A stretch of 64,000 nucleotides of DNA, from contig NW_027062649.1 of assembly GCF_032884065.1 (NCBI RefSeq), positions 3,517,355 through 3,581,354 of the forward strand, read 5' to 3'. The DNA is from Artemia franciscana (taxonomy: Eukaryota; Arthropoda; Branchiopoda; Anostraca; Artemiidae). Made by a program: the position numbers and the translations under genes. The notes beneath the pieces are model-generated. The model saw only the letters and a program-made list of their open reading frames with translations. It was not told where the DNA came from and made no database searches. Shown piece by piece: positions 284-27,029 of this stretch (within the stretch, counting starts at the first letter, position 1; each line of letters opens with the position of its first letter).

Positions 284-1262
284 TGAAATTACTAAAAATA
301 CTTTAGCGTAAAGAGCCAGGTATTACGAGGAGGTGAGCCCCTCATATGCGTAATAATTTCTGTTCGTTTTATGTTTTAATGCTGCTCCTTACTCTCAGTC
401 GAAAAAGTTTTTCATATTTATTTATTTTTTTTTTTTTTAAACAGTGTTAGAAAGTCCTGTGCCCCCTTCATTGAAATTCTCTTCCCCCATGACAAATTTC
501 TTGATGGAAAGATCCTCCCACGTCCCCTCCCTTCATTTTCTCCCCCCTCCGCCCTCCTCAAATCAAAAAAGTCGACCTGAAAACGTCTGTATACTTCCCA
601 ATAGCCATTAGTATATGTAAACAACAGTCAAAGTTTGTAACTTATAGCCCCTCCCACGGGGAATGTGGGGGAGTAAGTCGTCCCCAAAGACATAGTTATT
701 AGGTTTTTTGACTATGTTGAATAAAATGACTATCTCAGAATTTTTACCAGGTGACTTTGGGGGAAAATGAGCGTGGGAGGGGGCCTAGGTGCCCTCCAAT
801 TTTGTTGGTCGCTTAAAAACGCACTAGAACTTTTAATTTCTGTTAGAAGGAGCCCTCTCGCGACATTTTAGGACCACTGGGTCGATATGATCATTCCTAA
901 AAAAAAAATAAACGCGCATCCGTGATCTCTCTTCTGGCAAAAAATGGGAAAATGCACATCTTTGTCGATATGAGCTTGAAACTTCTACAATAGAGTTCTC
1001 TGATACGCTGTATCTGATGGTTTGATTTTCGTTGCGATGACTTTTAAGGGGTGTTTCCCCACTAACGGCAAATTTTCTCAGGCTCGTAACTTTTGATGGG
1101 TAAGACTAAACTTGATGAAACTTATATGCTTAAAATTAGCATTGAAATGTGATTCTTTTGATGTAACTATTTGTATCAAAATTTCATCTTTTAGAGTTTC
1201 GGTTACTATTGAGCCGGGTCGCTGCTTACTACAGTTCGTTACCACGAACTGTTTAATAGGGC
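284..1262 (+). mobile_element. Dispersed ~1-kb element X, near full-length copy
   Basis: Begins with a head motif (ACTTTAGCGTAAAGAG, then GAGGAGGTGAGCCCCT and TTTCTGTTCGTTTTA) and ends with a perfect hairpin at 1231-1252, stem ACAGTTCGT, loop TACC. Parts recur elsewhere in the window. Heads: 17233-17335, 17515-17640, 19272-19391 (minus), 20288-20408, 63418-63522 (minus), 63563-63668. Tails: 30545-30870 and 18880-19255 (minus). No long ORF is present, so it is non-autonomous. The class is unknown; the 3'-terminal hairpin would suit a rolling-circle derivative. Short ORFs inside it are not credible genes. Confidence 0.7.
1231..1252 (+). other. Terminal hairpin of element X
   Basis: Perfect 9-bp stem (ACAGTTCGT / ACGAACTGT) with a 4-nt loop. 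The second X tail, at 30838-30859, keeps the left arm and loop but carries ACGAACCGC on the right arm, so that copy has decayed. Confidence 0.75.
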
Positions 1263-2089
1263 TCGTGACTCACCTGCGGAGTTTTGTGGCAGTAGGTGTT
1301 ATAAAGTACTCGCTCTAGACCCTTTGATGGTGATAGCTACCTCTTCTGTCAGGTCGTTAACTATTTGTGTCTTATGAGACAGTTCCTTCAGTGGGAATTT
1401 TTTGTCTATTGCCAAGAGAAAAATAGATCTTCAACACAAAATTTTCTGTCCAAAACATTGATAATTTAGAACCGTTTCTAAAAACTCAACTACCTAAAGT
1501 TTACCTGAACAATAGAAATTAATACCATTCCCAAAAAATGCTATCTATCTTCTGTGACAACCTGGATGTGCTTGCACCCATTTGTTTTATTGAAATATAA
1601 CGGCTGAAGTAGTAATAGAAGTAACTTTGAATGTTGCCACTTAATATCCCCATTCGTTCTCGAGATATAGCTGAGATGTCTTATTGACAACAACATACAC
1701 AACGTCTTTTGTTTTAGTTTCAAATAAACATTTAGCTTTAAAGTATAAAGGTGAAATTGCATAATTGTGGTGGGTTGTTATATAAAATATCCCCTAGACA
1801 CATAGTAAATGGGCCGCTCTACTATGCTGAAAGAAATGGCTGTCTCAAAATGTTTATTCGACATGTTTAGAAAACGAATTGGCTTGCGAGGAATGTTGCC
1901 TGTCCCTAATCCCTTTTGACCCTTCAAAAGGGCACTAAGACTTTTAATTTCCTATCGAATTGCTCTGTTCTTTAAAAGTTCTAATTATATTACCAGTTAC
2001 TGTAGACTGGTGCTGCCTACTATAATGCTTGTAAGCCCTTTTGAAAACCTGCATGCGTAAAGGTCCTGCGTAAACCTTTACGTATGAGC
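1263..2089. other. No gene; AT-rich sequence with a faint diverged repeat
   Basis: No credible coding region. Around 1850-1970 there is a faint match to the 'CCCTTTTGACCCTTCAAAAGGGCACTAAGACTTTTAAT' type of repeat seen better at 16530-17050 and 63840-63900 (positions and shape given; exact similarity not measured). The 73-aa minus-strand frame at 1541-1762 has no recognisable domain. Confidence 0.5.
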
Positions 2090-2260
2090 AAATACCATAT
2101 GAGCTCTTGGCTCTTTCGACCTCGTTACAAGTGCCATATGAGCTCTTAGCTCTTGTTGTTTAATTGAAACTCCCAAAAACTATGCCCCTACAGTTTCACC
2201 TTAATACCCTTAGCGTCATTAGTTACATTAACGGTAGTGGTAGTATTAACTATTTTTAAT
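2090..2260 (-). repeat. 5' end of element P plus flank (second copy)
   Basis: On the minus strand this carries the P head (AACAAGAGCTAAGAGCTCAT then ATGGCACTTG) starting at 2157. About 100 bp of flank at 2158-2260 is also homologous to 3535-3630. Because flank and head are both shared with 3462-3630, this looks like a local duplication rather than an independent insertion. Confidence 0.65.
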
Positions 2261-2294
2261 TATTTTTATTTCAGAAGTGGTAGTATTAATTATT

Positions 2295-3534
2295 TTTTAA
2301 CTTTGATTTGGGGGGACCGAAAATCTATGAAAACGCTTAAAGCGGAGGGATGAGGATGAAACTTGGTGGAAAGAATAAGCACAAGTCCAAGATAGATGAC
2401 TGATATAACCGAACCAGATCCGCTCTTTTTGGTGGAGTTGGGTAAAAAGGAAAAATTAGGAAAAATAAGGTATTTGTAACTTACGAACGGGCGATCTTAA
2501 TGAAATTTTTTATCTAGAAGGATCTTGTCCTTTAGAACTCTCATTTTAAATTTCGACCAGATCCGGCGACACTGAAAGGAGTTGGAGGGGGAAACCGGAA
2601 TTCTTGGAAAACGTAATTCTTGGTAGATCTTAATAAATATCTAACGATCCGGGTGATCGGATCTTAAAGAAACTTGATATATAGAAGAATCTTATGTCTC
2701 AGATGTTCCATTTTCAATTCGAATCGGATCCGGGGACATAGAGGGTTGGAGGGGGAAAACCGAAATCTTGGAAACCGGAAATCTCGGAAAACCCTTAGAG
2801 GGGAGAGTTCGGAATGAAACTTGATGGGTAGAATAAGCACAAGTTTTAGATACAAGATTGACATAATTGGTACGGATCCGTTCTATTTTAGGGAGCTGGG
2901 ATTGTTAATTTGGAAAAATCAGAAAAATTGAGGTATTTTTAACTTGAGAACTGGTGACCGGATCTTAATGAAATTTGATATTTAGAAGGAACTCATGTCT
3001 AAGAGCTCTTATTTCAAATCCCGACCAGATCTTTTGACATTGGGGAAGTTGGAGGGAAAAACAGGATATCTTGGAAAAATTTATAAATGTCGTAGATATG
3101 TTATTGACGTAACCGGACTGGATCCGCTCTCTTTAGTGGAGTTTGGTTGTGGGGTTCAGTGCTTTGGTGAATTTTGTGCTTTCGGACGTGTTGGGACAAT
3201 GAAAATTGGCAGGCATGTCAGGGAACTACACAGATTGACTTGATTAAGTAGTTTTCTTCGATTCAACCGTCTGGGGGGCTGAGGAGGGTGGAAAAAGTAG
3301 AAAAAATGAGGTATTTTCAACTTACGAGTTGGTGATCGGATCTTAATGAATTTTAATATTTAGAAGGACCTCGTGACTCAGAGCTCTTATTTTAAATCCT
3401 GACCGGCATTAAGCTTCTGATTTTCCTTTTAAAGTAATCTATTGATTCTTAGAATTTTGCTAGAGCTCATACCATATGAGCTCTTGACTCTTTCGACCTC
3501 GTCACAAGTGCCATATGAGCTCTTAGCTCTTGTT
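2295..3534 (-). mobile_element. Element P copy A, 3'-truncated
   Basis: Minus-strand copy of the P repeat. Its head is at 3534 and its 10-bp subterminal repeat (seen as CAAGTGCCAT on the plus strand) at 3505-3514. It then runs through about four diverged internal units (key pieces: GGATCCG, GATCTTAATGAAATTTGATAT, AGAGCTCTTATTT) to about 2295. The GACA microsatellite and the 3' hairpin found in copies B and C are missing. The 82-aa frame at 2995-3243 crosses repeat units and is not a gene. Confidence 0.7.
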
Positions 3535-3630
3535 GTTTAATTGAAACTCCCCTAAAAGTTTCTTTTTATTACCCTTAGCGTTATTAGTTACATTAAAGGT
3601 AGTGGTAGTATTAATAGTAATCGTGTATTG
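3462..3630 (-). repeat. P head and flank, duplicate of 2090-2260
   Basis: Shared landmarks in the same order and spacing: CATATGAGCTCTTG, CACAAGTGCCATATGAGC, TTGTTGTTTAATTGAAACTCC, then TACATTAA-GGTAGTGGTAGTATTAA. The offset between the two copies is about 1.37 kb. Confidence 0.65.
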
Positions 3631-3750
3631 CCTTCTGGCTAGTTCAAATTTTGCCAAAACTTACCCAAATTTTTATAGAGGCGTTCCTTGGACGAGCGAA
3701 AATCGTGGCTGAACAAATTCCTTTCTAATCTAACAGCTTGAGCAAAATCA

Positions 3751-3880
3751 ACCGTGGACAGGTTATCTAGTAAAGATAAGACCCCAGTTACTCGCCAAAG
3801 AGGGGTTTATCAAATACCCTGTGACTGTGGCAATTACTGTGTCGGCAGGACCCATCAGAATCTAGATCACGATCTTAGAT
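3751..3880 (+). pseudogene. Penelope-like element GIY-YIG endonuclease fragment
   Basis: The reading frame through this segment contains SKDKTPVTRQRG, then GVYQIPCDCGNYCVGRTHQN. This is the GIY-YIG core (GVY ... CVG) with the CxC pair that Penelope-like elements carry between the two halves. It matches the start of the domain whose remainder is preserved at 19711-20139. After about residue 40 the frame runs into unrelated repeat sequence (WRHHWLNTTTLG...), so the endonuclease is cut short. Upstream, 3640-3750 may be degraded reverse-transcriptase-to-endonuclease linker but has stops. Pseudogene. Confidence 0.65.
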
Positions 3881-3884
3881 CTAG

Positions 3885-5790
3885 ATGGCGCCATCATTGG
3901 CTCAATACAACCACCCTGGGAAAAATACAAATTCTTTCTTAAAGCTATGGCCTATTAAGGTATTTTTTGGCTTGAAATGTCAATATGCCAGTTTTAAGAA
4001 AAAAATGCAACCAATTTCAAGGCCGGTTACTGGCAAAACTACATGGCATACTTGTATACATTGATTCTTGTTACCCTTGCCTTGTAACCCCATACAATTT
4101 GATCCTATTGAAGTTATGGTGCCATCATTGGTTCAATACAACCACCCTGGGAAAAATACAAATTCTTTCTTAAAGTTATGGCCCATCAAGGTATTCTTTG
4201 GCTTGTAAAGTCAGTATGCCAGTCTTAAAAAGAAAACATTTAGCCAATTTCAATGCCAGGGCCATCACGTGGTTTGCCGCAAACATCGGTACATTGAATT
4301 TTGTTGTAAGTAGCAACGTCTAATTGAATCACCTTTGTCTGCTTCTCTCTTTTCGGGAAAATGTAGGGCTCTACAGAGAATATGTATAAAGTTAAAGGGT
4401 CCCAGTGACGTTATTAATATATACGTAGTTTTCGGTATCTTTTAAAGTTTATAGGGCTTTGCACCATATGTCGTTAGCATAGAAGGGTATGATGGGGTTT
4501 TTCCTCAACCATAACATTTCCTTCTTCTTTACTTTCATTTTTGACTTTTTAATTTGTTCTACTCCGCGTTTTTGCAGGTCTTGTAACTGCAAGTTTCTTT
4601 GTCCTTCATTTTTTTTAATATATATTGTTACCTTTTTTACACAAATATTCTAGCTGGATATTTATTTATTCTTCATTCCCGTACTATGAAACTGCTGAAA
4701 ACACGTTTTACAAATAGGCTCATTACGCTTGATACTTTTTCCTTGACTATAGTTCTTATGTAATTTTGCCTTTCATTAACTGTAAAAAAGATTTGAGTAC
4801 TCTTGTGTCAAAAGTAACGTAAATAAGCTCTTGAAATGTGCTCATTAAATTGACGTTACATATGGTATTTTCCCCCAAAAGTATGGCTCTAACAAATTCC
4901 CTCAAACCTGCTAGAGATCACCTGGATCACCATTCTATTGTCGCTTGTCTTCAAATTGCAGCATATTCTTGATGTCCTGGCGTCAGCAGAGGTTTGATAC
5001 AACCACCTTGGAGAAAATTCAAAGTTTCGTTTAAAGTTTTTACCTGTTTAATTTGTTTTTGGTGCCAAAGATATCCACCTGCACGTTTTAACAAAAAAAA
5101 AAAAAAAAACAAAAAAAAAAACAACTATGCAGTCAATTTAGAGGCTAGACCCCGGCACGGCTACGTGGCAAGTTTTTATCTATTGATTTTTGTTGTCACT
5201 TGTCACTTGTCTTCTAGCCGCAGCCAGTGGGGGCGGCTTGATGATTCATTTTATGAAATCAACATAGGCTCGATACAACTATCCCGAGAAGAAAAAATAC
5301 AAATTCTTCCTTAAAGCTGTGATCTATTTTTGATCATTTTCTGTTAAAATTTTTGATATGCCAGTTTTCAAAAGAAAAACTATATGGCTGATTTTGAGGC
5401 CGGAATCCTGCGTGGCTATGCAGCAAGGTTGTATATACTTATCCTAATTATCACTTATCCTCTAGCTTCAGGCAATTTGAGCATCTTCTCGATGTCATGG
5501 TCTGGGGCCCGATATAGCTACACAGCAGGCTAGTATTTATTGATTCTAATTGTCGGTTATCTCTTAAGTGTTGACAATGCATGCCTCTTTTTAATTTCGT
5601 TGTATTGCCAAGGGTTCGATAGAACCACCCTTGGAAAAATAAAAGTTTTGACCTATTTGGATCGTTTTTGTTTTGTGCTAGAAATATCAATTTACCAGTT
5701 TTACCAAAGTAAAAACCCATGTAGCCAATTTCGATGGCTCTGGTACTGGGCATGGAGAAGGCTTGTATATATTGATTCTCGTTTTAAGTA
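3885..5790 (+). repeat. Cluster of five diverged ~200-240 bp repeats
   Basis: Units start near 3890, 4128, 4988, 5265 and 5605. Each has a TCAATACAACCACCCTGGG-like start, then AAATACAAATTCTTTCTTAAAG, a YATGCCAGTTTTA block, CCAATTT-AGGCC, and a TTGTATACATTGATTCTTGTT end. The first two are close; the others are strongly diverged and carry insertions. Several short ORFs here end in the same peptide (TLGKIQILS) only because they sit on the same repeat. No gene is supported. Confidence 0.65.
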
Positions 5791-6850
5791 AAAACTTTCA
5801 AATAATTCACCTTTTCGCTGCTTTTTCCTCGGGAAAATAGAAAGTTCTACAGGGAATATTCATAACTTTGAAAGGTCCCAAAGACATAATTAATTTTTTT
5901 GTAGTTAATAGTATTTTAGGTTTGTAGAGAATTTGTGCCAAATTTCGTTGGCGTCGAAGATTATGATAGTGCTGTTTCTCTAATGTAATACTTCTTTTTT
6001 TCTTCTGCATTTTTTGTGACTAAAAAAAGAAAATTCTCCTCTTTTTTGTCGCGCGTCTTGTAACTGCATGTTTCTTTATGCTTTACTTTTGCTTTTGTCT
6101 CGTTGTAGTTGGCGTTGATACTGGCATTCTAACAATATATTTCTTTGTTCCGCATTTTGATTATCATTACTTTAGATATTTTTTTAATACCCTTTTCCTT
6201 AATTGCTCGGTTTGGTCTTGTTACATTCGATGGTCCAGGTTTTTCATTTGTGCTCTAGGCATTACCAAACTACATAAAATTCCTTTGTAAATAAACTCAT
6301 TACACTTGAACAGTACTTTACAAATAGCTATATTTTTTCGTAATGTTGCATTTGTAATCAATTAAAAATCGATATGATCACTTTGGGGGCGGGGGAGATC
6401 ATAATTTATTTTATTGAAACGTTTTCTTAAGTGCAACGTCATTGAGATAATTTTTTCCAAAATTGAATTTCTAAGCGAATTATGTCTGTCTCGTGATATA
6501 TTGTTCTGATTCTCGCTGCTGTTACATGTCATGTATTCACATTTTTGTTTTCACTTTTGCTTTTGACTTGCTTTATTTCTCGCTGTCGCTTACTTCTAAC
6601 TGGATATTTTTTGTCCCTCACTTTCAGTTTTGACTCGTTCTACTTATCACTTTCGCAAGTATTTTAACCTTATATTATTTTTTGGCTATTTTTCTAAGTT
6701 ATTCATTGGTCATATAAGCATTATGAAGCTATATACTGAAACTATAAAACTATATACTATATACTGAAAATGCCTTTTGTAAATAGACTCATTACCCTTG
6801 GCATTTTATTCTTGACCTATGTTTCTGCGTCATTGACATTAAAATTGATA
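4310..6850. repeat. Diverged large duplication, roughly 4.31-4.76 kb versus 5.79-6.33 kb
   Basis: The same landmark order appears twice: an AATTCACCTTT-like start, CTCGGGAAAATAGAAAGTTCTACAG, GGTCCCA-GACRT, TGCACCATATGTCGTTAGC, then CTTCTTCTTT and TGTAACTGCA. The tail block, with TTTACAAATAGGCTCATTAC, recurs near 4707, 6285 and 6780. It appears to belong to the same repeat complex as 3885-5790. No ORF in it has a recognisable domain. Confidence 0.5.
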
Positions 6851-7535: not shown

Positions 7536-8198
7536 AAATTACAAAAAGGATAAAAAAACCTAAATAAGAATTGTCAAAGAAAAACATAAGGAAATTGCAT
7601 CAAAAGTGCTTAAAAAGTTTTGTTGTAATTTAAAAATATGCAGTCTCAGATGTATTCTACTGAAATTCAGAATTGCTTAATTTTTTGAACATAACAACTT
7701 TGTTTAGAAATGTCTCGGTGCATAGATGTAAATTTCATATCTATGTAAGAAACGAATTCAACTCTTATCTCTATTCGCTTGTTAAGAGACGAAGGCCAAA
7801 GTTATTAATCATAGCAAGGGATGAGTCAATAAAACATCTGTTCTAAGACTCAAGAGATAAACTAAACCATGAAAAAGGCGGCCATGTCTGCCATAGGCCA
7901 CATTTAGGCACAAGGCTGAAGACACAAGCTGCTTATCCTAGTGATTAAAATGAGTCAAAGAAGAATAGAAAGACTCATGAAGAGGCCTTTGGACGGCCAT
8001 AATATCCGCAAATCAATGCTTACATTATTTTAAGCCTAAACTGACAGGGTGAAAAAAAGAGCCTGACTGGAAAATGGGGCTGGCTAATGGACCCCAGTCT
8101 AAAAAAATTTGAAAAAATACCGTTTTAAATGTATTGCCATTTTGCTCAAGACACTCAGATCAATCAGTTAGAAATACTTAAATACAAAAATACTCCCA
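7536..8198. other. No gene recognised
   Basis: AT-rich flank on the 3' side of the piggyBac remnant. It should contain that element's 3' inverted repeat if one survives. I found no TTAA followed by CCC-type terminal sequence here. Confidence 0.4.
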
Positions 8199-13110: not shown

Positions 13111-15871
13111 AACAAGAGCTAAGAGCTCATATGGCATTTGTGACGAGGCAAGAAGAGCTAAGAGCCAAGAGATCATATGGTATGAGTTCTAACAAAATTC
13201 TATGAATCAATAGATTGATTTAAAAAGGAAAATGAGAGGCTTAATGCCGGTAAAGATTTAAAATAAGAGCTCTGAGTCACAAAGTCCTTCTAAATATCAA
13301 AATTCATTAAGATCCGATCACCCACTCGTAAGTTATAAATACCTAATTTTTTCTAATTTTTCCTCTCCCTTTTGCCCCCCAGATGGTCGAATCTGGGAAA
13401 ACGACTTTATCAAGTCAAATTGTGCAGCTCCCTGACACGCCTACCAATTTTCATCGCCCTAGCACGTCCAGAAGCACCGAACTCGCCAAATCACTGAACC
13501 CAACCCCCCAACTCCCCAAAGAGAGCGAATCCTGTACGATTCTGTCAATCACGTATCAAGGAAATTTGTTTATTCTATCTACCAAGCTTCATCCTGATTC
13601 CTACACTCCAAGTGTTTTTCCAAGATTTCCCCCTCAAAATCCCCACAATGTCAAAAGATCTGGTCGGGATTTGAAATAAGAGCTCTGAGACATGAATTCC
13701 TTCTAAAAATCAAATTTCATTACGATCCGATCATCTATTCGTAAGATATAAATACTCCAATTTTCATGTTTTCAAGAATTCCGGTTCCCCCCTCCAACTC
13801 CCCCGAATGTCACAGGATCTGGTCGGAATTTGAAATTAGAACTTTAAAGCACAAGATCCTTCTAAATATCAAATTTCATTAAGATCTGGTCACCCTTTCG
13901 TAAGTTACAAATACCTCAATTTTCAAAATTACCTCCCCCCCAATTCCACCAAAGAGAGCAGATCCGGTCCAGTTATGTCAGTCACGTATCTTTGACAGGT
14001 TTCTATTCTTCCCATCCAGTTTCATCCTGATCTCACCGCTTTAAGTATTTTCTAAGATTTCCGGTCCCCCCAACTGCCCCCCCCCCAATTACGCATGATC
14101 CCGTTGAGATTTAAAATAAGATATCGGAGTTACGAGGTCCTTCTAAATATGAAGTTTCATGAAGATCCGATCACTCCTTCGTAAGTCAAAAATACGTCAT
14201 TTTTCTTATTTTTCAGAATTACCCCCCCCCCCGCAATTGAGCGGATCCGTTCCAATTATGTAAATTTTGTATGCAAGACTTCTGCTTATTTTTCCAACCA
14301 AGTTTCATCCCAATCCCTCCAATCTAAGCGTTTCCCATCATTTTAGGTCACCCCACCCCAAACTTCCCCCAATGTCACCAGATCCGGTCGGGATTCAAAA
14401 TAAGAGCTTTGAGACACGATATCCTTCTAAAAATCAAATTTCATGGAGATCCAATCACCCGTTCGTAAGTTAAAAAAACCTCATTTTTCTAATTTTTCAG
14501 AATTAACCCCCCCCCCCCCAACTACCCCAAAGAGAGCGGATCCGTTCTGGTTATGTCAATCATGTATCTAGGACTCGTTTTTTTTCCACCAAGTTTCATC
14601 CCGATCCCTCCACTCTTAAGTGTTTTCCAATTTTTAGGTTTCTCCCTCCCAACTCCCCCCCCAATGTCACCAGATCCGGTCGGGTTTAAAATAAGAGCTC
14701 TGAGCCACGATATCCTTCTAAATATCAAATTTCATTGAGATCTGATCACCCGTTCGTAAGTTAAAAATACCTCATTTTTTTCAGAAATACCCCCCCCCCC
14801 AACTACCCAAAAGAGAGCGGATCCGTTCCGTTTATGTCAATCATCTATCTAGGACTTGTGTTTATTTTTCCCACCATATGTTTCATCCCGATCCCTCCAC
14901 TCTAAGTGTTTTCCAAGTTTTAGGTTTCCCTCTCCCAACTCCCCGCCCCCATCACCAGATCCGGTCGGGATTTAAAATAAGAGCTCTTAGACACGATATC
15001 CTTCTAAACATCAAATTTCATTGAGATCTGATCATCCGTTCGTAAGTTGAAAATACCTCATTTTTCTAATTTTTAAGACTTACTCCCCCCCCAACTATCC
15101 CAAAGAGAGCAAATCAGTTCCGATTATGTCAATCATGTATCTGGGACTTGCGCTTATTTTTTCCATCAAGTTTCATCTCAATCCCTCTACTCTAAGTGTT
15201 TTCCAAGATTTTAGGTTTCCCCCCTCCAACTCCCCCCAATGTCATCAGACCCAGTCGGGATTTAAAATAAGAGCTCTGAGACACAATATCATTCCAAACA
15301 TCAAATTTCATTAAGATCCAATCACTCGCTCATAAGTTAAAAATACTTCATTTTTTCTATTTTTCCGAATTAACCGACCCCTACTGCCCCCCAGATGGTC
15401 AAATCGGGAAAACAACTATTTCTAATTTAATCTGGTCCGATCCCTGATACGCTTGCCAAATTTCATCGTCCTAGCTTACCTGGAAGTGCCTAAAGTAGCA
15501 AAACCGTGACTTTAGGTTTTCCCCCTCCAACTCCCCCCAATGTCATCAGATCCGGTCGGGATTTAAAATAAGAGCTCTGAGACACAATATCATTCCAAAC
15601 ATCAAATTTCATTAAGATCCAATCACCCGCTGATAAGTTAAAAACACTTCATTTTTTCTATTTTTTGCGAATTAACCGGGCCCCCACTCTCCCCCAGATG
15701 GTCAAATCAGGAAAACGACTATTTCTAATTTAATCTGGTCCGGTCCCTGATACGCTTGCCAAATTTCATCGTCCTAGCTTACCTGGAAGTGCCTAAAGTA
15801 GCAAAACCGGGACCGACAGACCGACAGAATTGGCGACTGCTATATGTCACTTGGTTAATACCAAGTGCCAT
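13111..15871 (+). mobile_element. Element P copy B, full length (2.76 kb)
   Basis: Starts AACAAGAGCTAAGAGCTCAT, with subterminal repeat ATGGCATTTG at 13131-13140 (one mismatch from its partner). The body is about nine copies of a ~290-bp unit (TCCTTCTAAA-type landmark at 13290, 13701, 13856, 14130, 14420, 14710, 14999, 15288, 15587) with C-homopolymer tracts. It ends with a short GACCGACA microsatellite, a perfect hairpin at 15848-15867 and CAAGTGCCAT at 15862-15871. No transposase. Architecture matches Helentron-derived non-autonomous elements; see the findings. Confidence 0.8.
15848..15867 (+). other. 3' hairpin of element P copy B
   Basis: CACTTGGT-TAAT-ACCAAGTG, perfect 8-bp stem. Its right arm overlaps the 3' subterminal inverted repeat (CAAGTGCCAT). 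An identical hairpin ends copy C. Confidence 0.9.
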
Positions 15872-15889
15872 AAAAACGAATGTATTCAA

Positions 15890-16135
15890 GCCGAAGTAGC
15901 TCAGTTATATAACTACCTGTGTTGGCGCAGTGGGTTTGACCTTAGCGTGGTAATACGGGACCCAGAGATCGAACCATGCTGCAGGAATGCACTACAGGGC
16001 CGACGCAAAGACCTTAGTAGTCAAGAAGCGTCGTTAATCCGATACAAATACGAATACAGTTGCTCAGCTGGTAAAGCGTTATGTTGCTGGTTCTAGGTCC
16101 GAGAGGTTCCAGGTTCGAACCTTGGCTTTAGCATT
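15890..16135 (+). mobile_element. tRNA-derived SINE-like segment
   Basis: Two Pol III-type promoter pairs. The first has an A-box-like TGGCGCAGTGGG (near 15932) and a degraded B box GATCGAACC (near 15988). The second has TGCTCAGCTGG at 16061-16071 and a perfect B box GGTTCGAACC at 16112-16121, followed by CTTGGCTTTAGC. Neither folds into an intact tRNA cloverleaf, so they are tRNA-derived repeats, not tRNA genes. The 88-aa ORF over this stretch is not meaningful. Confidence 0.55.
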
Positions 16136-16530: not shown

Positions 16531-17060
16531 AGCCAAGGGGACTAGCTGCCCTCCATTAATTTTGACTCTTAAAAAGGAAATAGAGCTTCAAATATTCAAT
16601 CAAATAAGCCTCCTCTTAAGTTCACAAAGCCACCCCTTCTATAAAAATCTTATATGTTCCTGGGGCATAACTTACAACCCTTGTTCCCAGAATCAGGGTG
16701 TTATGTCAACCCTTAATGCCTTGTTATGTGACCTTTATACTGTTTTTCAACAAGTGGCTATTTCGAAATTTCCATCGGATGCATTTGGAAAAAATATACC
16801 GCAAGGGGAGGGGGCTAGTTGCCCTCTGATTATTTTGACTCTTAAAAAGGGCATTATAACTTCTGATTTCCAATCCAATGATCCCCCTCAGTAGTTCATA
16901 TGACCACCTTTCCATTTAAATCTTATATGCCCTCGGGGCATAGCTTACAGCCCTTGCCCTGAGAGCTGTGGGGAGGGCTGTCATCTTCAAATACATAGTT
17001 ACTGGACCTTTCAACTTCTTCCCTCTGTCACTTTCTACAATTAAAAAGATCACTTGTCTC
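16530..17060 (+). repeat. Two diverged units of a ~250-bp dispersed repeat
   Basis: Landmarks AGCTGCCCTCC, TTTTGACTCTTAAAAAGG, TCTTATATG-TCCTGGGGCATA and ACTTACARCCCTTG occur at about 16545-16690 and again at 16810-16960. Reverse-orientation relatives lie at 59800-60560. The short ORFs of 63-110 aa across it are repeat shadows. Confidence 0.6.
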
Positions 17061-22644: not shown

Positions 22645-25430
22645 AACAAGAGCTAAGATTTCATATGGCACTTGTGACAAGGCGAGAAGAGCTAAGAGCC
22701 GAGAGATCATAGGGTATGAGCTCTAAAAAAATTCTATTAATATATAGATTGATTTAAAAAGGAAAATAAGAGGCTTAATGCCGGTCAGGATTTAAAATAA
22801 GAGCTCTGAGTCACGATGTCCTTCTAAATATCAAAATTCATTAAGATCTGATCTCCCACTCGTAAGTTATAAACACCTAATTATTTCTAATTTTTCCTCT
22901 CCCTTTAGCACCCCAGATGGTTGAATCTGGGAAAACGACTTTATCAAGTCAAATTGTGCAGCTCCCTGACACGCCTACCAATTTTCATCGTCCTAGCATC
23001 CAGAAGCACCAAACTCACCAAATCACTGAACCCCTTCCCCCAACTCCCCCAAAGAGAGCGAATCCAGTACAATTCTGTCAATCATGTATCAAGGACATTT
23101 GTTTATTCTATCCACCAAGCTTCATCCCGATTCCTCCACTCCAAATGTTTTTCCAAGATTTCCACCTCAAACTCCCCCCAATGTCAAAATATCTGGTCAG
23201 GATTTGAAATAAGAGCTCTGAGACATGAATTCCTTCTAAAAATCAAATTTCTTTAAGATCCGATCATCTATTCGTAAGATAAAAATACCCCAATTTTCAC
23301 GTTTTCCAAAAATTCCGGTTTCCCCCTCCAACTCCCCCCAATGTCGCAGGATCTGGTCGGAATTTAAAATTAGAACTTTAAAGCACAAGATCCTTCTAAA
23401 TATCAAATTTCATTAAAATCTGGTCACCCTTTCGTAAGTTACAAATACCTCAAATTTCAAAATTACCCCCCCCCCCATTCCACCAAATAGAGCAGATCTG
23501 GTCCGGTTATGTCAGTCACGTATCTTAGACAGGTTTCTATTCTTCCCATCCAGTTTCATCCTTATCTCACCGCTTTAAGTATTTTCTAAGATTTCCGGTC
23601 CCCCCAACTCCCCCCCCCCCAATTACGCTTGATCTGGTTGAGATTTAAAATAAGAGATCTGAGTTACGAGGTCCTTCTAAATATGAAGTTTCATGAAGAT
23701 CCGATCACTCCTTCGTAAGTTAAAAATACGTCTCTTTCTTATTTTTCAGAATTACCCCCCCCCTCCCAATAGAGCGGATCCGTTCCAATTATGTATATCA
23801 CGTATGTAAGACTTCTGATTATGTTCCCTACCAAGTTTCATCCCGATCCCTCCAATCTAAGCGTTTTCCATGATTTTAGGTTCCCCCACCCCAAACTTCC
23901 CCCAATGTCACCAGATCCGGTCAGGATTTAAAATAATTGCTTTGAGACACGATATCCTTCTAAATATCAAATTTCATTGAGATCCGATCACCCGTTCGTA
24001 AGTTAAAAATACCTCATTTTTTCTAATTTTTCAGAATTAACCCCTCCCCCAACTACCCCAAAGAGAGCGGATCCATTCCGTTTATGTCAATAATGTATCC
24101 AGGACTTGTGCTTATTTTTTCCTTCAAGTTTCATCCCGATTCCTCCACTCTAAGTGTTTTCCAAGTTTTAGGTTTCCCCCTCCCAACTCCCCCCCAATAT
24201 CATCAGATCTGGTCGGGTTTAAAATAAGGGCTCTGAGCCACGATATCCTTCTAAATATCAAATTTCATTGAGATCCGATCACTCGTTCGTAAGTTAAAAA
24301 TACCTCATTTTTTCTAATTTTTCAGAAATACCCCCCCCCCCCCAACTACCCCAAAGAGAGCGGATCCGTTCCGTTTATGTCAACCATGTATCTAGGACTT
24401 GTGTTTATTTTTCCCACCAAGTTTCATCCCGATTCCTCCACTTTAAGTGTTTTCCAAGTTTTAGATTTCCCCCTCCCCCCCCAATGTCACCAGATCTGGT
24501 CAAGCTTCAAAATGAGAGCTCTAAGACACGATATCCTTCTAAACATCAAATTTCACTGAGATCCGATCCATGTTTAGAAGGAGTAAGTTAAAAATACCTC
24601 ATTTTTCCTAATTTTTCAGAATTACCCCCCCCCCCCCAACTACCCCAAAGAGAGCGAACCCGTTCCAACTATGTCAATCGTGTATCTGGGACTTGTGCTT
24701 ATTTATCCCATCAAGTTTCATCCTGATCCCTCCACTTTAAGTGTTTTCCAAGTTTTAGATTTCCCCCTCCCAACTCCCCCCCCCCAATGTCACCAGATCC
24801 GGTCAAGCTTCAAAATGAGAGCTCTAAAACACGATATCCTTCTAAACATCAAATTTCACTGAGATCCGATCCATGTTTAGAAGGAGTAAGTTAAAAATAC
24901 CTCATTTTTCCTAATTTTTCAGAATTACCCCCCCCCCCCCCAACTACCCCAAAGAGAGCGAACCCGTTCCAACTATGTCAATCATGTATCTCGGACTTGT
25001 GCTTATTTATCCCATCAAGTTTCATCCTGATCCCTCCACTCTAAGTGTTTTCCAAGATTTTAGGTTCCCCCCTCCAACTCCCCCCAATGTCATCAGATCC
25101 GGTCGGGATTTAAAATAAGAGCTCTGAGACACAATTAAATTCCAAACATCAAATTTCATTAAGATCCCATCACCCGCTCACAAGTTAAAAATACTTCATT
25201 TTTTCTATTTTTTCCGAATTAACCGGCCCCCACTCCCCCCTCCAGATGGTCAAATTGGGAAAACGACTATTTCTAATTTAAGCTGTCATGTCCCTGATAG
25301 GCCTGCCAAATTTCATCGTCCTAGATTACCTGGAAGTGCCTAAAGTAGCAAAACCAGGACCGACAGACAGACAGACAGACTGACAGAATTGGCGATTGCT
25401 ATATGTCACTTGGTTAATACCAAGTGCCAT
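22645..25430 (+). mobile_element. Element P copy C, full length (2.79 kb)
   Basis: Same architecture as copy B: start at AACAAGAGCTAAGA; subterminal repeat ATGGCACTTG at 22665-22674; about nine ~290-bp units (landmarks near 22821, 23232, 23392, 23670, 23958, 24248, 24535, 24835, 25140) with poly-C tracts; GACAGACAGACAGACAGACT microsatellite at about 25361-25386; hairpin at 25407-25426; and CAAGTGCCAT at 25421-25430, a perfect partner of the 5' subterminal repeat. Two adjacent units (24535 and 24835) share a duplicated ATGTTTAGAAGGAGTAAG variant, evidence of recent unit duplication inside the element. Confidence 0.82.
25407..25426 (+). other. 3' hairpin of element P copy C
   Basis: CACTTGGT-TAAT-ACCAAGTG, identical to the hairpin of copy B. 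Confidence 0.9.
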
Positions 25431-26342: not shown

Positions 26343-27029
26343 TTAACCCTTACTCAGCCAATTGAAATCATCTACTTTTTTATGACTTTCTGGATCAAAC
26401 TTAAATCCACGCACATCAAATTTATCAGTCTCAGAATATTTAAGTGGCAAAGGACCAAAGCGAATCTTGCTACAATCCTCTATGATAGCACGACTGTTGA
26501 CATGAAGAGAGACATCACAATCTGTTGAAGCATGCATTCGCAATTGCTGACAAGAAAGATAGAACTGGCAGTTCTTACAATCGCGGATGAAAATTGATGT
26601 TTTCACTGGTGATGCAACTATCACAGAATTTGATAAATTTATAAGATGAACAGTTCCAGGTATTTCGTTTATCGTTATTGTAGCATTTTTGCAATCTTTA
26701 ATAAGAACATCCTCATCCTTACAGTTCAATATAGTTTTTTGGTCATTCTGGAGTCCCTCAAGGACGAATTTGGGAACTGTGTTTATATCTTGTTCAATAT
26801 TTCTTTCTATTTTTGCAGTCTCTCTCTTCAGCAACTCCCTATCTACGACAACTTTCTTTAAATCACTTTCGACTGCGTTGCGGCGAAATCCAAACTTTTT
26901 AGGTTTCACATCAATGGCTTGGGTAAGATCAGCACTATACTTCTGGAGGTTGGACTGTATTTTACACCTCTCGTAAGATTGCAATACCACTAAGGACTCA
27001 TTTAATATACGGCTAACTTCACTAATGTT
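26343..27029 (-). CDS. TBCC: Tubulin-specific chaperone C (cofactor C), C-terminal exon
   Basis: TBCC is the GTPase-activating cofactor in the tubulin folding pathway. With cofactors D and E it triggers GTP hydrolysis by beta-tubulin and release of the alpha/beta heterodimer in the cytosol. The frame is open for 228 codons. The segment NESLVVLQSYERCK through KPKKFGF matches the end of the N-terminal helical domain. The rest is the C-CAP/cofactor-C beta-helix: IKDCKNATITI, SIFIRDCKNCQFYLSCQQLR, SRAIIEDCSKIRFGP and KVDDFNWL. The Arg of QQLR is the catalytic arginine finger and is present. Homologues end with ~20 more residues after DDFNWL, so the C-terminus may be shortened or finish in another exon. 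The frame has no ATG at its start; it continues the upstream exon (see 27030-27304). Identity is firm; functionality is not. Confidence 0.88.
   Translation of the reverse strand, partial: NISEVSRILNESLVVLQSYERCKIQSNLQKYSADLTQAIDVKPKKFGFRRNAVESDLKKVVVDRELLKRETAKIERNIEQDINTVPKFVLEGLQNDQKTILNCKDEDVLIKDCKNATITINEIPGTVHLINLSNSVIVASPVKTSIFIRDCKNCQFYLSCQQLRMHASTDCDVSLHVNSRAIIEDCSKIRFGPLPLKYSETDKFDVRGFKFDPESHKKVDDFNWLSKG

Follow-up and report, generated by a model that had tools for sequence, protein, structure and literature searches.

Element P of Artemia franciscana, a probable non-autonomous Helentron-type element with a satellite-like tandem core

The window, a stretch of 64,000 nt from the 1.27-Gb genome of Artemia franciscana (G000:C63:3517355-3581354), contains two complete copies and one decayed copy of a repeat designated element P. 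Copy B (13111–15871, 2,761 bp) and copy C (22645–25430, 2,786 bp) share exact ends, as the first-pass annotation of this DNA had stated, and the agreement holds to the base: both start with AACAAGAG, at 13111 and 22645, and both end with GCCAT, at 15871 and 25430. The two copies align with 87.4% identity over 2,832 bp, from the first base exactly to five A past the last. The third copy, absent from the first-pass annotation, is a stub on the plus strand (2089–3534), which comprises two 3' ends (AACAAGAG; at 2157 and 3534) and core sequence, and in which no 5' end was found. The flank beside copy B (15872–16000) appears SINE-like by eye, and the host sequence of this copy is a high-copy repeat, the joined flanks having 1,422 first-look candidates in the genome. 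Between the repeats lies an open frame with a TBCC domain (tubulin-binding cofactor C; 26343–26990, minus strand; PF07986, E=7.6e-34), likely a host gene. An array of 113-bp units, which we take to be, probably, the classical AluI satellite of Artemia (Cruces et al.), occupies 24.6 kb between 30961 and 55553; its orientation switches near 43.2 kb and short register breaks of 40/153 bp recur within it. No tRNA genes were detected in the window by ARAGORN.

Copies B and C both read on the minus strand of the window, with the 5' end at 15871 or 25430 and the 3' end at 13111 or 22645. In this direction the layout is a T-run, ATGGCACTTGG-TATTAA-CCAAGTG, a (GTCN)n microsatellite, an array of ~290-bp units and finally CAAGTGCCATAT-GAGCTCTTAGCTC-TTGTT, the ends being ATGGCACTTGGTATTAACCAAGTG and CAAGTGCCATATGAGCTCTTAGCTCTTGTT. 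The 5' end of copy B (15842–15871) is formed by the 5' subterminal inverted repeat (subTIR) TATGGCACTTG, the first T of which lies in the flanking T-run, and by the inverted repeat (IR) CCAAGTG, giving a hairpin at 15848–15867. Inside it follow the microsatellite (15811–15828), the core array (13240–15810, approximate limits) and the 3' end (13111–13140), which consists of the 3' subTIR with one mismatch, the palindrome GAGCT-CTT-AGCTC and the final CTTGTT. Copy C is built likewise, with its 5' end at 25401–25430 (hairpin 25407–25426), its microsatellite at 25358–25387 and its 3' end at 22645–22674, where the palindrome lacks an exact stem and the last letters are again CTTGTT. The inverted pair of subterminal repeats given in the first-pass annotation thus exists, but its size is 11 bp rather than 10 bp when one flanking T is counted (TATGGCACTTG / CAAGTGCCATA), with one mismatch in copy B and none in copy C. 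Similarly, a microsatellite does lie beside the hairpin, but instead of pure (GACA)n the plus strand reads a mixture of GACA and GACC, plus GACT in copy C, with 4 units in copy B and 7 in copy C.

The hairpin itself, CACTTGGT-TAAT-ACCAAGTG, is exact in both copies and had been read as the 3' terminus. This orientation was rejected, because the order subTIR, IR, microsatellite, array and palindrome fits the HINEs, non-autonomous elements of the Helentron type, on the minus strand only; the polarity is reversed, the hairpin being the 5' subTIR together with its inverted repeat, and the 3' palindrome stands at the opposite end. Genome-wide, the exact 20-bp hairpin occurs at 7,814 places and its reversed control at none, and no match arose in 100 dinucleotide shuffles of the window. 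When folded as DNA, the 5' hairpin reaches a z-score of about -5, with an equally good fold in none of 200 shuffles. The short 3' palindrome (GAGCT..AGCTC) folds near chance (z -1.1; equalled by 30 of 200 shuffles).

For a wider view of the family, 20 stretches were fetched, representing 26 of the first 100 of the 7,814 hairpin places; all 100 lie within the first 17.7 Mb of contig C1, so that the sample of loci is non-random. With the 5' (left) end as bait and up to 2 mismatches allowed, the window and these stretches yielded 30 5' ends. A 3' (right) end, for which up to 5 mismatches to the pattern were tolerated, followed within the stretch in 18 cases, the complete copies examined here; in the other 12 the copy is truncated, the end has diverged too far, or the element continues beyond the stretch. 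Both ends are conserved in all 18, as is the CCAAGTG repeat, which belonged to the bait and whose presence is therefore not independent. The minus-strand order is TT (mostly TTTTT), ATGGCACTTGG, TATTAA, CCAAGTG, ~20 bp, GTCN, array, CAAGTGCCATA and TGAGCTCTTAGCTCTTGTT. In 11 of the 18 copies the 11-bp subTIR pair matches perfectly, and in 16 it shows one mismatch or none; the exact stem of the 3' palindrome is present in 11. Each copy carries 3 to 16 GTCN motifs after CCAAGTG, in an uninterrupted run of at least three in 16 copies and without such a run in two. Lengths range from 1,838 to 4,782 bp (median 2,270), and the terminal letters at the T-rich sites are ATGG or ATGA at the 5' end and GTT at the 3' end throughout. 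A variant hairpin (CACTTGGTAGATACCAAGTG), followed by apparent unit sequence, was seen near position 6271 (plus strand) of locus L054, together with its complement, and possibly represents a second HINE family.

All 30 5' ends are preceded by TT, and 25 of them by TTTTT. Empty sites could be matched for four insertions, namely copies B and C and those termed L043- and L058+. For copy B, the best 40 of the 1,422 candidates for the joined flanks are all contiguous and 93–99% identical; counted from coordinates, 34 show no net length change and 6 differ. The empty site of copy C (C8:44972075-44972277) is one contiguous match of 96% identity, in which an A-run of 16 corresponds to 7+6 beside the element in the filled site; hence nothing was duplicated. 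For L043-, the empty paralog in L053 is 94% identical over 401 bp and gapless at the junction, other empty paralogs being 4 bases (L049) or 2 bases (L058) shorter at the junction. At least six empty paralogs of L058+, 73–78% identical, agree at the junction except L042, which has 2 extra T. Spanning matches of L048 and L056 were left uncounted, being poorer or in simple sequence. At these four insertions the element entered a T-run without deletion and without a duplication of 3 bp or more, in accordance with the insertion without target duplication foreseen in the first-pass annotation; since the left flanks (30 of 30) and the elements (18 of 18) both end in TT, a 2-bp TT duplication is indistinguishable from none.

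With a probability of about 0.88, element P of Artemia franciscana belongs to the non-autonomous Helentron-type elements (HINEs), and in the window its mobile unit lies on the minus strand. The pearl/HINE-like, Helentron-type class with a tandem core, proposed in the first-pass annotation, is right in view of the ends, the T-rich insertion and the layout: subTIR, IR, microsatellite, array, 3' subTIR and palindrome follow one another as in the HINE and DINE-1 elements described in PMC4067079 and PMC7492417. For such an element, a Helentron Rep/helicase supplied in trans would nick at the T-run ends and the element would be copied by rolling circle, the 5' subTIR/IR hairpin and the 3' palindrome presumably serving as recognition and stop signals; slippage or unequal exchange might later alter the number of units within individual copies.

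The most serious rival, itself very unlikely, is that element P derives from a canonical, non-Helentron Helitron and is mobilised by the RGLPH-type Helitron that abounds in this genome. That family would be an obvious source of Rep enzyme, being very abundant and having long open frames. A search for its rolling-circle Rep domain, Helitron_like_N (PF14214), which the Helentron-type system of element P would share, gave 7,436 first-look candidates, the best 150 of which all scored above the cut-off. The 30 loci examined (L009-L038) are one canonical Helitron family with open frames of up to 2,091 aa; among the rows shown, the main alignments to L009 are ~94.6–96.9% identical. Their Rep motif reads RGLPHAH in 28 loci, RGLPHTH in one and RGLSHAH in one, the RGL form in 30 of 30 and not the RGS of Helentrons. 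A hairpin near the 3' end, as in the orientation first given, also looks superficially Helitron-like. However, unlike element P these loci are coding, and none of the 30 contains P sequence within 2.7–3.5 kb, in which matches do not exceed 22 bp at E values of 0.11 or higher and the family's own ends did not come into view; the RGL-type Helitron was rejected as the partner on this ground and by its motif. Canonical Helitrons have 5' TC and 3' CTRR ends and insert between A and T. The ends of element P have no TC...CTRR termini in either orientation and lie in T-runs instead of A/T sites, and the order subTIR-IR-microsatellite-array-subTIR is that of HINEs, against a canonical Helitron. The N-terminus of the L009-L038 proteins carries a variable PEQR..RLAAKRE peptide repeat, and L044 contains a Helitron helicase fragment.

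An autonomous Helentron with the ends of element P, which the first-pass annotation had proposed to look for, was not found, although Helentron-type Rep genes occur in the genome. A query with the Helentron Rep motif gave 12 matches with E <1e-7 among the 150 matches listed; five of those listed fall within open frames 2,446 to 2,701 aa long, and some of the weak ones are the canonical Helitron again, two coinciding with Helitron_like_N places. Long Helentron-type frames are located at C4112:13378, C76:535734, C3032:15641, C10:1770712 and C6:2730483. The last has a neighbour at C6:2740919, on the same strand and 10.4 kb apart, the frames measuring 2,701 and 1,747 aa. In L059, situated on C6 between these two strong matches, the frame reads DYFWRIEYQTRGAPHVHC / FWRIEYQTRGAPHVHC, with PF14214 (E=1.4e-26) and DUF6570; its Rep motif has Ala where the published Helentron signature (PMC4067079) has Ser. 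No P-like end was found in the 4.5 kb of L059 that were read, which include 1.7 kb before the open frame and a 100-base N gap. Helentron-type enzymes are thus encoded in the genome, but none could be linked to the ends of element P. Rep motif 2 was absent from all six frames of the window and of the 20 loci.

A second rival, less probable still, returns to the earlier class of pearl-type elements and treats element P as a MITE, descended from a DNA transposon that moves by cut and paste and has short inverted ends. Its short length, high copy number and inverted arms (TATGGCACTTG/CAAGTGCCATA) would fit, and a 2-bp TT duplication is formally possible. However, the TIR-type ends that the first-pass annotation had named as counter-evidence are missing: the 3' arm of the 18 complete copies sits 30 bp inside the end. 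Moreover, the four insertions lack any duplication of 3 bp or more, and hairpin, microsatellite and 3' palindrome are placed as in HINEs.

The core of this HINE is a tandem array, as first described, with units of about 290 bp. A regular series of nine units was not recovered, the main TRF rows comprising 5.6 (copy B) and 6.6 (copy C) periods of 290–293 bp with 77–82% match, while BLAST covers 7.1 and 7.8 unit lengths, respectively. Towards the AACAAGAG end, TRF reports a half-period of 159/160 bp. A self-comparison of half-units (~145 bp) gave a local score of 43, against a maximum of 40 in 500 mononucleotide shuffles and in part due to C-tracts, and is only suggestive of an origin of the 290-bp unit from a ~145-bp half-unit, perhaps as an old dimer. 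In the first-pass annotation the core was said to have grown to ~2.5 kb; such a size is nothing exceptional, since oyster HINE arrays comprise up to 29 monomers of ~166 bp (PMC7492417). A tandem interior is found in all 18 complete copies, two of which (L048 and L053) also hold long foreign stretches.

From these 18 copies, 53 units of 270–310 bp were excised. The closest relative of a unit is located in another element in 48 cases and in its own element in 5, and the arrays were therefore mostly inherited by transposition and not regrown in each copy: the core array moves as a block. Four copies (L043-, L050, L051 and L052) are 97.6–99.6% identical over their full length, gaps ignored; the family has thus been recently mobile, and these copies form a young subfamily.

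Several candidate concatemers were considered. The triple in L039 was rejected as a rolling-circle concatemer: a 2.98-kb locus, its flanks near-identical, is duplicated in tandem there, and the elements are not joined head to tail. Close pairs of hairpins number 6 against 2.8 expected among the 100 places on C1; 53 of 1,000 random draws gave at least as many, and the excess is not convincing. In L040 (~960–4607, minus strand) the start of one P copy falls exactly in a T-run within a core unit of a second, outer copy, the rest of which could not be located. The locus has two 5' ends but a single 3' end; with only 83% identity between the halves, a one-step rolling-circle product was rejected.

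Copy C offers a view of the array after insertion. Its flanks recur at C63:3392046-3392147 (96%) and 3394644-3394743 (99%), enclosing ~2,498 bp instead of the 2,786 bp of copy C, about one unit (~288 bp) shorter. To judge by its flanks, this sister locus (C63:3392046-3394743) looks like the same insertion within a duplicated locus. In copy C, the two complete, adjacent units closest to the 5' end (24440–25045, outer limits approximate) are 98.6% alike, and a 25-mer at 24565–24589 and 24868–24892 has exactly two occurrences in the genome, one in each of these units. On the simplest account, one unit of copy C apparently gained a private change and was then duplicated in tandem in place, after the insertion. 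Loss of a unit from the sister locus would be the alternative; the private 25-mer argues for gain. Plain misassembly is unlikely, as several substitutions and differing C-tract lengths set the two units apart.

Mutually closest adjacent unit pairs were found in copy C (98.6%) and in L042-1964 (95.2%), and in both cases no other complete units lie closer to the 5' hairpin and microsatellite. Likeness to the reference unit is lowest towards the 3' end; the reference was taken from copy C, which biases this gradient. An array growing from its 5' end, with hairpin and (GTCN)n as a standing replication-stalling site that produces new units, would match this arrangement; it is a doubtful reading, weakened by the fact that only one of the two pairs is recent.

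It had also been suggested that such elements provide a route by which satellite DNA is seeded. The idea that Helentrons carrying tandem repeats feed satellite DNA is already in print (PMC7492417, PMC12628747), and no free satellite of the unit was seen in the small sample covered here. A 20-mer of the unit occurs at 16,861 places genome-wide and its reversed control at none. The first 100 of these places form 67 clusters within 10.2 Mb at the start of C1, the largest with 5 exact anchors and none longer than 2.7 kb, and whole-unit matches (best 40 of 4,439 candidates) are scattered, with at most two full-length units adjacent. Within this 10.2-Mb sample no long free satellite array was seen, in an assembly of a kind that collapses long arrays. 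An exact hairpin lies within 4.5 kb on the expected side and strand in 26 of the 67 clusters (random mean 0.6, largest 5 in 1,000 draws) and on the wrong side or strand in 2. The tandem core, together with the 41 clusters that have no exact hairpin within this distance on the expected side and strand, and whose ends may have been lost or mutated, would suit a satellite whose dispersed short arrays merely resemble elements, but this least probable of the rivals is contradicted by sharp, conserved non-repeat ends on both sides, by the contiguous empty sites of copies B and C and by the 26 clusters with a correctly placed hairpin.

Among described elements, Cg_HINE of the oyster Crassostrea gigas resembles element P in many respects (PMC7492417): a 5' subTIR of 11–12 bp with a complementary IR nearby, a 4-nt microsatellite in the left flank (GTCY in several), satellite-like central repeats in one fixed orientation, a 3' subTIR followed by a palindrome, T-rich insertion without target-site duplication, and no autonomous partner identified. 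In contrast, Cg_HINE belongs to another phylum and has consensus units of 138–181 bp against ~290 bp in element P; moreover, some oyster repeats match Cg170 (PMC7492417), whereas no related free satellite of element P was seen in the sample. The pearl elements of bivalves (CvE, CvA), DTC84 and MgE are placed among the HINEs in the same text (PMC7492417). Like element P, pearl is modular with central tandem repeats (PMC7492417); it is described with up to six repeats of ~160 bp (PMC7492417, PMC5139131). With Artemia franciscana as host, the comparison to pearl therefore crosses phyla and is not one within bivalves. HINE-Mo and DINE-1 share with element P the subTIRs, apparently the 3' stem-loop, the microsatellite, the non-coding character and insertion at TT or T-rich sites without modification, and DINE-1 in addition an IR nested against the 5' subTIR (PMC4067079). 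The subTIR is 11 bp long in element P and 12–15 bp in HINE-Mo and DINE-1, and the distance from the 3' subTIR to the end is 30 bp as compared with 38–60 bp in the mite HINE (PMC4067079). A further difference from HINE-Mo and DINE-1, as described there, is the large tandem core in every complete P copy examined; the partner of element P was not found.

Rolling-circle elements account for 8.81% of the Artemia franciscana genome (PMC11492255). No earlier report of a HINE with a satellite-like core in a branchiopod was found in the titles and abstract openings surveyed. The architecture as such is already known; new here are the host, the empty sites, the block-wise inheritance of the array and the apparent gain of one unit in place. 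Element P represents, in a branchiopod crustacean, a HINE family that has a satellite-like core, is very abundant and was active recently. If arrays did grow from the hairpin and microsatellite, a transposition signal would double as a satellite generator. Copy C represents an ordered case, in which an insertion, its empty paralog, a sister about one unit shorter and a unique marker of the duplicated unit come together. It separates the copying of arrays by transposition, which accounts for most of the units examined, from growth in place, which apparently occurred at least once.
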